From assembly GCA_024688365.1 (NCBI GenBank), contig JAILEG010000046.1:1-64000 (forward strand): DNA of 64,000 nucleotides, given 5' to 3'. Below, in pieces: positions 20,910-63,258 of the stretch; the stretch's first letter is position 1; every line of letters starts with the position of its first letter. Below the pieces are notes generated by a model, which was given only the letters and a program-made list of their open reading frames with translations, was not told the origin of the DNA and ran no database searches. The stretch comes from Prevotella sp. (GTDB lineage: Bacteria > Bacteroidota > Bacteroidia > Bacteroidales > Bacteroidaceae). The translations under genes were made by a program, and so were the position numbers.

Positions 20910-20975
20910 TACTTTACGTGAAGTACCTGACTACTGCACGTAAAGTATCACAGTACTTCACGAGAAGTACTGCCC
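20910..20975. repeat. 22-bp-period palindromic array, locus B (3 units)
   Basis: TACTTTACGTGAAGTACCTGAC / TACTGCACGTAAAGTATCACAG / TACTTCACGAGAAGTACTGCCC; unit starts at 20910, 20932, 20954. Confidence 0.88.
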
Positions 20976-34621: not shown

Positions 34622-34753
34622 CCAATATACCTTTCCCCAAAAAGGTATATACGTTTTACCGAAAAGGTATATACATTTTCACCAAAAAGTATATACGTTT
34701 TGCCCAAAAGGTATATACCTTTTTCCCGAAAGGTATAATCGTTCTCCAAAAAA
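34622..34753. repeat. 22-bp-period array, locus E (6 units, ends degenerate)
   Basis: CCAATATACCTTTCCCCAAAAA / GGTATATACGTTTTACCGAAAA / GGTATATACATTTTCACCAAAA / AGTATATACGTTTTGCCCAAAA / GGTATATACCTTTTTCCCGAAA / GGTATAATCGTTCTCCAAAAAA. Confidence 0.9.
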
Positions 34754-46389: not shown

Positions 46390-46547
46390 TGATTCCGTAT
46401 ATAATTTGTTTTATCTTATCTGATTGGTTTATCTGATATGATTGATTTATTCTATCTAATCTGATTTTATTGATTTGATTTATGGGCCTGTTTTATTGGT
46501 TAGCTTTATGGGGCTGTTTTATAGATTAGCCTTTATCGCTAATCCTC

Positions 46548-46579: not shown

Positions 46580-46648
46580 CCGCCCACAAAGATACGATTT
46601 ATTTCTCAATTTTCCTCGTTTATACTTGCAATCCGCCCTCAAATGTAT

Positions 46649-46656
46649 TATCTTTG
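46649..46656 (+). promoter_or_regulatory. -7 box TATCTTTG upstream of the HU-like gene
   Basis: matches Bacteroidetes TAnnTTTG; predicted start about 46662, immediately before array C. Confidence 0.6.
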
Positions 46657-46672
46657 CACTGTGATGACGGAT

Positions 46673-46760
46673 TTCCATACGTGTATGGAAATTCGTTTTT
46701 ACATGTAAGGAAATATTTTTCTACACGTAAGGAAATCTGTCCTTACACGTAAAGACACCT
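46673..46760. repeat. 22-bp-period palindromic array, locus C (4 units)
   Basis: TTCCATACGTGTATGGAAATTC / GTTTTTACATGTAAGGAAATAT / TTTTCTACACGTAAGGAAATCT / GTCCTTACACGTAAAGACACCT. Confidence 0.9.
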
Positions 46761-46878
46761 GCCGGAAGCCTACGATGGCAACAGACGAGAAGCATACCGG
46801 CAGCCCTCATACAGGATAACAAGGACAGGATAAGACCGCTAAAAGACACATTTCAAACCAAACAATCAGATAAAGACA

Positions 46879-47481
46879 ATGACAGCATTTTACAAATTAG
46901 TCAAGACCAGTGGCGCCATCCGCCACAACGCAGAGTTCAGAGCCATCACCGTTGAGAACGAGACCGTTGGGATGAAACGGATCCAGCAGCGCATCGGGCA
47001 GTCAACCACACTTACCCCTGCCGACATCACCGCAGCCATCACGGCACTCAAGACCGAGATTGCCGATGAGCTGAAGATGGGCAACAAGGTGCATCTCCCG
47101 GGCATCGGTTTCTTCTCGTTAGGTGTGAAGGGGGAACTATATGAGGACCCGCAATCACACAACCACCGTCTACGGAACGCACGGGTGCGGACTGTGAGAT
47201 TCAATCCTGACACCGAGTTCCGACTGGCCTTGGCTGATACTAAGTTCACAAACAGGACTGATGTGCTGGGAAAATCGTCAGTCCCGACAGCCGATGAGGT
47301 AAAACTGACGCTCGACAGCCTTTTTGCCAAGAGCCCGGTCATCACCGTGAATGACCTTTGCCGACAGATGCCCCTCTCCAGATCGTATGCCTACAAGCTG
47401 GTAAAGCAACTGGAGGAGAATGGAAAATTGCGCAATATAGGCACTCGCTACAGAAAGCTCTATATAAAAGGTAAGGCATAA
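46879..47481 (+). CDS. HU-like DNA-binding protein with C-terminal helix-turn-helix-like extension
   Basis: KTEIADELKMGNKVHLPGIGFFSLGVKG HU-like core; C-terminal VNDLCRQMPLSRSYAYKLVKQLEENGKLRNIGTRYRKLYIKG. Confidence 0.85.
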   Translation: MTAFYKLVKTSGAIRHNAEFRAITVENETVGMKRIQQRIGQSTTLTPADITAAITALKTEIADELKMGNKVHLPGIGFFSLGVKGELYEDPQSHNHRLRNARVRTVRFNPDTEFRLALADTKFTNRTDVLGKSSVPTADEVKLTLDSLFAKSPVITVNDLCRQMPLSRSYAYKLVKQLEENGKLRNIGTRYRKLYIKGKA

Positions 47482-63064: not shown

Positions 63065-63170
63065 TATGGCTGGCCCATAAGCCGGACAGACAGCCTATCG
63101 AACTGGGACATGGCTGCAGACACACCTCAAACAACAGCTTCTCGCATCGCCCCCCAGCCCAACCTTGAAA

Positions 63171-63258
63171 TTCTCTACACGTAAGGAAATTCGTCCTTAC
63201 ACGTAGAGAAATATTTTCCTACGTGTAAATAAATTCTTCCATACGCGTAAGGACATTC
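63171..63258. repeat. 22-bp-period palindromic array, locus D (4 units)
   Basis: TTCTCTACACGTAAGGAAATTC / GTCCTTACACGTAGAGAAATAT / TTTCCTACGTGTAAATAAATTC / TTCCATACGCGTAAGGACATTC. Confidence 0.9.

Follow-up and report, generated by a model that had tools for sequence, protein, structure and literature searches.

Four palindromic units at the promoter of a Prevotella HU-HIG gene: a probable operator whose sites recur along the genome

The window analysed here is a 64,000-nucleotide stretch of a Prevotella sp. genome (G000; 2.4 Mb in 54 contigs, assembly 82% complete). It carries a gene coding for a protein of the HU-HIG family. The gene is preceded by array C, four palindromic units of 22 nt that occupy positions 46672-46757 and lie 16 nt 3′ of the -7 box TATCTTTG (Table 1). 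A preliminary description of the locus had placed this box, as well as a four-unit array in the predicted 5′ leader of an HU-like gene. Both had been located correctly: the box was found again together with a -33-like motif, and the spacing of the units proved to be exactly 22 nt. The transcription start of the HU-HIG gene is predicted from the position of the -7 box. The stretch separating the C1-peptidase gene from the HU-HIG promoter also contains AT-rich tandem repeats of 18 and 26 nt, at 46406-46536.

Table 1. Features of the HU-HIG locus and of a dispersed array in the window
Feature	Position	Strand	Basis or remark
-33-like element CTTGC	46625..46629	+	Sequence; TTG kept in aligned leaders
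-7 box TATCTTTG, Bacteroidota TAnnTTTG	46649..46656	+	Sequence, register, leader alignment
Array C unit 1, TTTCCATACGTGTATGGAAA	46672..46691	+	Dyad centre 32.5 nt from first base of -7 box
Array C unit 2	46694..46713	+	
Array C unit 3	46716..46735	+	
Array C unit 4	46738..46757	+	
Remainder of predicted 5′ leader	46758..46878	+	Sequence; length differs among homologues
HU-HIG protein gene, 200 aa	46879..47481	+	PF18291; P. falsenii orthologue 60% identical
HU-like domain, residues 1-124	46879..47250	+	Pfam and model
C-terminal winged-helix domain, about residues 137-198	47287..47472	+	Model and Foldseek
Array D, dispersed four-unit copy	63170..63255	+	3′ of alanyl-tRNA synthetase gene; lacks an adjacent -7 box

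The product of the gene matches the Pfam HU-HIG family PF18291 over residues 1-124 (E 7e-24, 84.7 bits for a curated cut-off of 26.2). Its last 60 residues or so give weak Pfam matches to HTH domains. In a structure model built from a 27-sequence alignment (mean pLDDT 78), the HU-like part is followed by a C-terminal winged helix, with three helices (138-151, 157-163 and 168-180) and a wing within residues 138-197. Foldseek searches likened the C-terminal part to MarR/ArsR-type winged helices and the HU part to IHF, with weak E-values (0.01-0.07). The family match and the modelled winged helix bear out the HU-like core with a C-terminal HTH-like extension that had been read from the sequence. 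No effector domain was detected by Pfam.

Array C is not isolated. The core of its unit is matched 12 times in the window for 2.2 matches expected, a value reached in none of 100 shuffles. In the whole of G000, the unit pattern gives 73 matches, 41 forward and 32 reverse, as compared to 9 for a reversed-pattern control. Combining pattern searches with the examination of stretches around arrays, we counted 16 arrays of this unit type in the stretches of G000 covered, array D among them, and 35 in P. falsenii (G017). Exactly four units were present in 15 of the 16 arrays, in 33 of the 35 and in most of the 14 arrays considered in P. vespertina (G003), with a spacing of 22 nt save for one of 21. 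P. vespertina has about 14 dispersed arrays; for one genome that is complete, the figure is on the order of 100. Two other arrays were seen in the window. One, at 20910-20970, is a 22-nt dyad array of about 2.8 units (TACTTCACGTGAAGTACC...) without adjoining HU-HIG gene, and no protein corresponding to it was found. The other, at 34625-34752, is a 22/44-nt array of about 5.9 units (ATATACCTTTTCCCCAAAAGGT) beside an SprT-like gene, and belongs to a family distinct from that of array C.

Homologues were searched in contigs with a seven-sequence alignment, a single-protein query having given no match, and gene calls were simple open reading frames. The 31 named homologues retained come from oral Prevotella, Hoylesella, Segatella and Alloprevotella, and do not represent independent observations. 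A phased-dyad array (score of at least 1.1) was called in 27 of the 31 HU-HIG leaders; the same loci supplied 112 leaders as controls, none of which had one. Some homologues (L184, L200, L204, L206) have no array at the leader position. L184 (P. falsenii) and L200 (P. vespertina), the latter also lacking a promoter, are second gene copies and possibly correspond to moved or decaying ones.

We then compared how far the first dyad centre lies from the -7 box, counted from its first base, in 26 leaders with a measurable box, namely 25 of the 27 array leaders and that of the window. This distance is 32.5 nt in 17 leaders, 32.0 in four, 31.5 in four and 33.5 in one. The array period is 22 nt in 23 of these leaders and 21 nt in three, and the distance from the end of the array to the ATG ranges from 46 to 252 nt. 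The TTG of the -33 element is conserved in the aligned leaders (92/87/77%), 22-24 nt 5′ of the -7 box. Despite the shared register, the units themselves are unrelated in sequence (TTCCATACGTGTATGGAA, GTCTCATAATAGTGAGAC, TTCCCAACGGGTTGGGAA, TTTTCATCACGATGATAA, GTCCCTTCGGGAAGAGAC). In P. histicola and P. veroralis (L199, L201, L207), the leader arrays have a 21-nt period and a fourth unit with an inverted core. Three further HU-HIG genes of G000 (L002, L003 and L005, on contigs C54, C7 and C47) have different 22-nt units near their promoters, in smaller number; the L005 unit, CAGTCGACAG, sits immediately 5′ of the promoter.

The same layout of box and four-unit array was observed for Parabacteroides distasonis, Bacteroides finegoldii (three genes) and Phocaeicola massiliensis, whose homologues are only 24-31% identical; the register, counted by hand, is 32.5-33.5 nt. 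Most of the distant Bacteroidales homologues examined have four-unit dyad arrays upstream, with a period of 22 or 23 nt. For several distant HU-HIG genes the array is placed elsewhere relative to the promoter, and the register is not always kept. Some of the sequences (L239-L242) are PLSDB records of B. finegoldii and P. distasonis TSDC17.2 labelled as plasmids. The P. distasonis record is probably chromosomal, because rpsL and rpsG adjoin its HU-HIG gene.

The unit sequence of a leader is private to the genome or to the paralogue, and is common to the dispersed arrays of the same genome. At least 20 matches to the window's unit type were found in only three of 399 genomes of the genus: G000 (52), G017 (148) and G100 (153). 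All three belong to the 18 genomes with a close homologue and all three have the window's leader type. In one sample drawn from the genus, the other 22 genomes gave at most two stray matches. P. vespertina has four homologues, 44-50% identical, three of which have differing arrays 3′ of a TAnnTTTG box; the paralogue leaders carry TTTCATCATGAAGAGAC and TTCACCATGGTGAAA. Its dispersed arrays use its own leader sequences and not that of the window, TTCAYCAYGRTGARA giving 83 matches as compared to 3 for the control. Similarly, TTTCCCAACRGGTTGRGAAAT is matched 51 times in G270, twice in one of 17 other genomes and not at all in the other 16, while TTWTCATGAAAAGAAATATTT is matched 444 times in G327 and 173-192 times in three genomes with the same leader. 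The correspondence holds in the four genomes with the TTTTCATGAAAAG leader. It was also seen in H. marshii and in G224 with few copies, H. marshii having almost no dispersed ones. In Mantel tests, distances between arrays rose with those between proteins (r 0.35-0.37, p about 0.001), a signal that could reflect shared descent; these tests did not single out the winged helix as the domain setting specificity. Overall, the comparison suggests that each HU-HIG protein binds landing sites on the chromosome that are private to it, and controls its own level through one of these.

We then considered where the dispersed arrays lie. They are intergenic, about 200 nt from genes, and are spread along contigs, with roughly one array per 30 kb over 1.3 Mb of contig C1 of G327. 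One could imagine the HU-HIG protein as a conventional transcription factor, with the dispersed arrays as the operators of its regulon, in line with the operator-like site at its own promoter. However, of the roughly 60 dispersed arrays compared in three genomes, none had a TAnnTTTG box oriented towards it within 60 nt. Moreover, divergent intergenic regions hold slightly fewer arrays than expected (4/51, p 0.047) and, in tandem ones, the arrays lie nearer the stop of the upstream gene; these p-values are modest, and the background contains the very gaps that hold arrays. Chromosomal position is hardly conserved between species, with two flanking-gene matches between G000 and P. falsenii. A regulon appears unlikely, and this placement is more in keeping with architectural sites or with a dispersing element.

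A dispersing element could be a selfish one. The arrays would then be a MITE or minisatellite resembling the BrickBuilt repeats of Porphyromonas gingivalis, which lie in a MITE (PMC4596501), and their copies at HU-HIG promoters would be chance insertions. The dispersed intergenic copies, the positions mostly not kept between species and the array flanks, symmetric and conserved in P. falsenii and P. vespertina and weak in G000, are in line with such an origin. Yet chance insertion cannot explain why 26 leaders whose units are unrelated share the 32.5-nt register, or why none of the 112 controls has an array, and the number of units is nearly always four, as against 1 to 22.8 for BrickBuilt (PMC4596501). 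We therefore give this explanation a low probability. In P. vespertina (L099 4204-4538, and the flanks of L102-L113), degenerate 22-nt repeats extend beyond the four-unit core in both directions, in some cases by more than 100 nt.

The preliminary description had also suggested that the units could act as RNA, forming serial hairpins in the leader that would control the mRNA. The leader indeed folds far more strongly than shuffled sequences (z -5.2), because its units are palindromic, as would be the case for any palindromic array. Each genome uses a limited repertoire of half-site sequences. However, the arms within one unit resemble each other no more than expected by chance, and less so in P. 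falsenii (7.05 matches out of 9 within a unit for 7.31 expected). Among whole-array hairpin pairings, none showed positive covariation and several pairs were depleted for complementarity, which argues that RNA hairpins are not what is selected. In addition, the array is fixed relative to the promoter and not to the ATG, most copies are dispersed without adjacent promoter, and an Rfam scan gave no family at gathering score, with sub-threshold miRNA matches only. A function as RNA hairpins is consequently very improbable. The lack of covariation and the promoter register point to double-stranded DNA sites.

The array keeps a constant distance from the promoter that drives the gene for its candidate binding protein, as would be expected of an autoregulatory operator. 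We consider it likely that array C serves as operator for the HU-HIG gene and belongs, like the dispersed copies, to the genome-wide binding sites of its product. The earlier proposal, in which the protein would bind the arrays and regulate its own gene, has gained strong comparative support, at the level of sequence, from the fixed register, the private shared units and the 0/112 controls. In the proposed mechanism, the protein would combine an HU-like DNA-bending core with a sequence-reading winged helix, presumably with one dimer per dyad. It would occupy the four dyads, phased at 22 bp or roughly two turns of the helix, and bend or wrap some 88 bp so that a single nucleoprotein unit results. 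In the array at its own promoter, the first dyad would be centred at about +20, within the space needed by RNA polymerase, and occupancy is therefore proposed to repress initiation. The operator copy would in this way sense free HU-HIG protein. Since the same sites are dispersed elsewhere, the amount of free protein, and hence repression, would depend on the number of sites filled, resulting in a titration feedback. This feedback would not be universal, because a few genomes such as H. marshii are almost without dispersed copies. The dispersed arrays, located between genes and without promoter, would most likely be architectural or boundary sites rather than operators.

The protein-array pairs might also distinguish self from invading DNA, HU-HIG proteins recognising the arrays in order to mark or police DNA. 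A role in conflicts was reportedly proposed by Burroughs and colleagues in 2017 for the HU-HIG expansion in Bacteroidetes, and the rapid, genome-private divergence of the pairs is what a conflict predicts. Against this, the protein has no effector domain and no homologue was found in viral contigs, so that we hold a policing role to be improbable. A phage origin is likewise unsupported, with only two phage-labelled contigs whose labels are putative.

Coming back to the operator model, it is conceivable, though we put it forward tentatively, that HU-HIG proteins, together with their four-dyad arrays, make up a modular system that marks the chromosome throughout the order Bacteroidales. It would comprise many pairs diverging independently, several in each genome and each with its private specificity; the array-bearing promoter would act as a level sensor, and the dispersed arrays would provide architectural nodes. 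Proteins of the HU superfamily are known mainly for packing DNA without specificity, IHF being a partial exception; here, a widespread HU branch appears to have precise, fast-changing, genome-private sites and a built-in level sensor. A large and largely uncharacterised protein family would thus gain a candidate ligand open to test, and short intergenic repeat arrays in Bacteroidales an explanation, possibly including BrickBuilt. The dozens of natural protein-site pairs would also be of use for studying specificity change.

Within known systems, the window's protein is a member of the HU-HIG family, with an HU core fused to a winged helix; a partial coverage of the literature gave no report of a cognate DNA array for this family or of a link between HU-HIG and a repeat. 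REP/BIME elements of enterobacteria, bound by IHF and gyrase, are also dispersed intergenic palindromic repeats tied to a protein of the HU/IHF superfamily. In the present case, however, the array changes from species to species along with the protein, whose own gene bears the array at its promoter. Iteron-binding Rep proteins, TubR/tubC and ParB/parS are autoregulated phased-repeat systems in which the arrays mark an origin or a centromere. As with HU-HIG, the gene of a DNA-binding protein adjoins an array of phased sites for it, but here the arrays are spread through the chromosome and the protein belongs to the HU superfamily.

The nearest described repeat is BrickBuilt of P. gingivalis. 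In the passages of its description used here (Klein et al. 2015, PMC4596501), it is a spacer-less 23-nt tandem repeat with about 19 dispersed intergenic copies, its units being enclosed in a MITE whose leader and tail have IS5-like terminal inverted repeats; the same passages contain no proposal by the authors that it is a protein-binding site. Its shortest copy, BrickBuilt_14 (84 nt), adjoins PGN_0872, a gene for an HU-family (PF00216) DNA-binding protein (PMC4596501). Both repeats are dispersed, intergenic and in tandem, with a copy beside an HU-superfamily gene. In contrast to the 23-nt unit and variable unit number of BrickBuilt, the unit is here of 22 nt, the number is fixed at four (15 of the 16 arrays of G000) and the sequence is matched to the HU-HIG leader. 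As unit length and number differ, the arrays were not counted as BrickBuilt members. Judged from the published description, BrickBuilt looks like the same principle.
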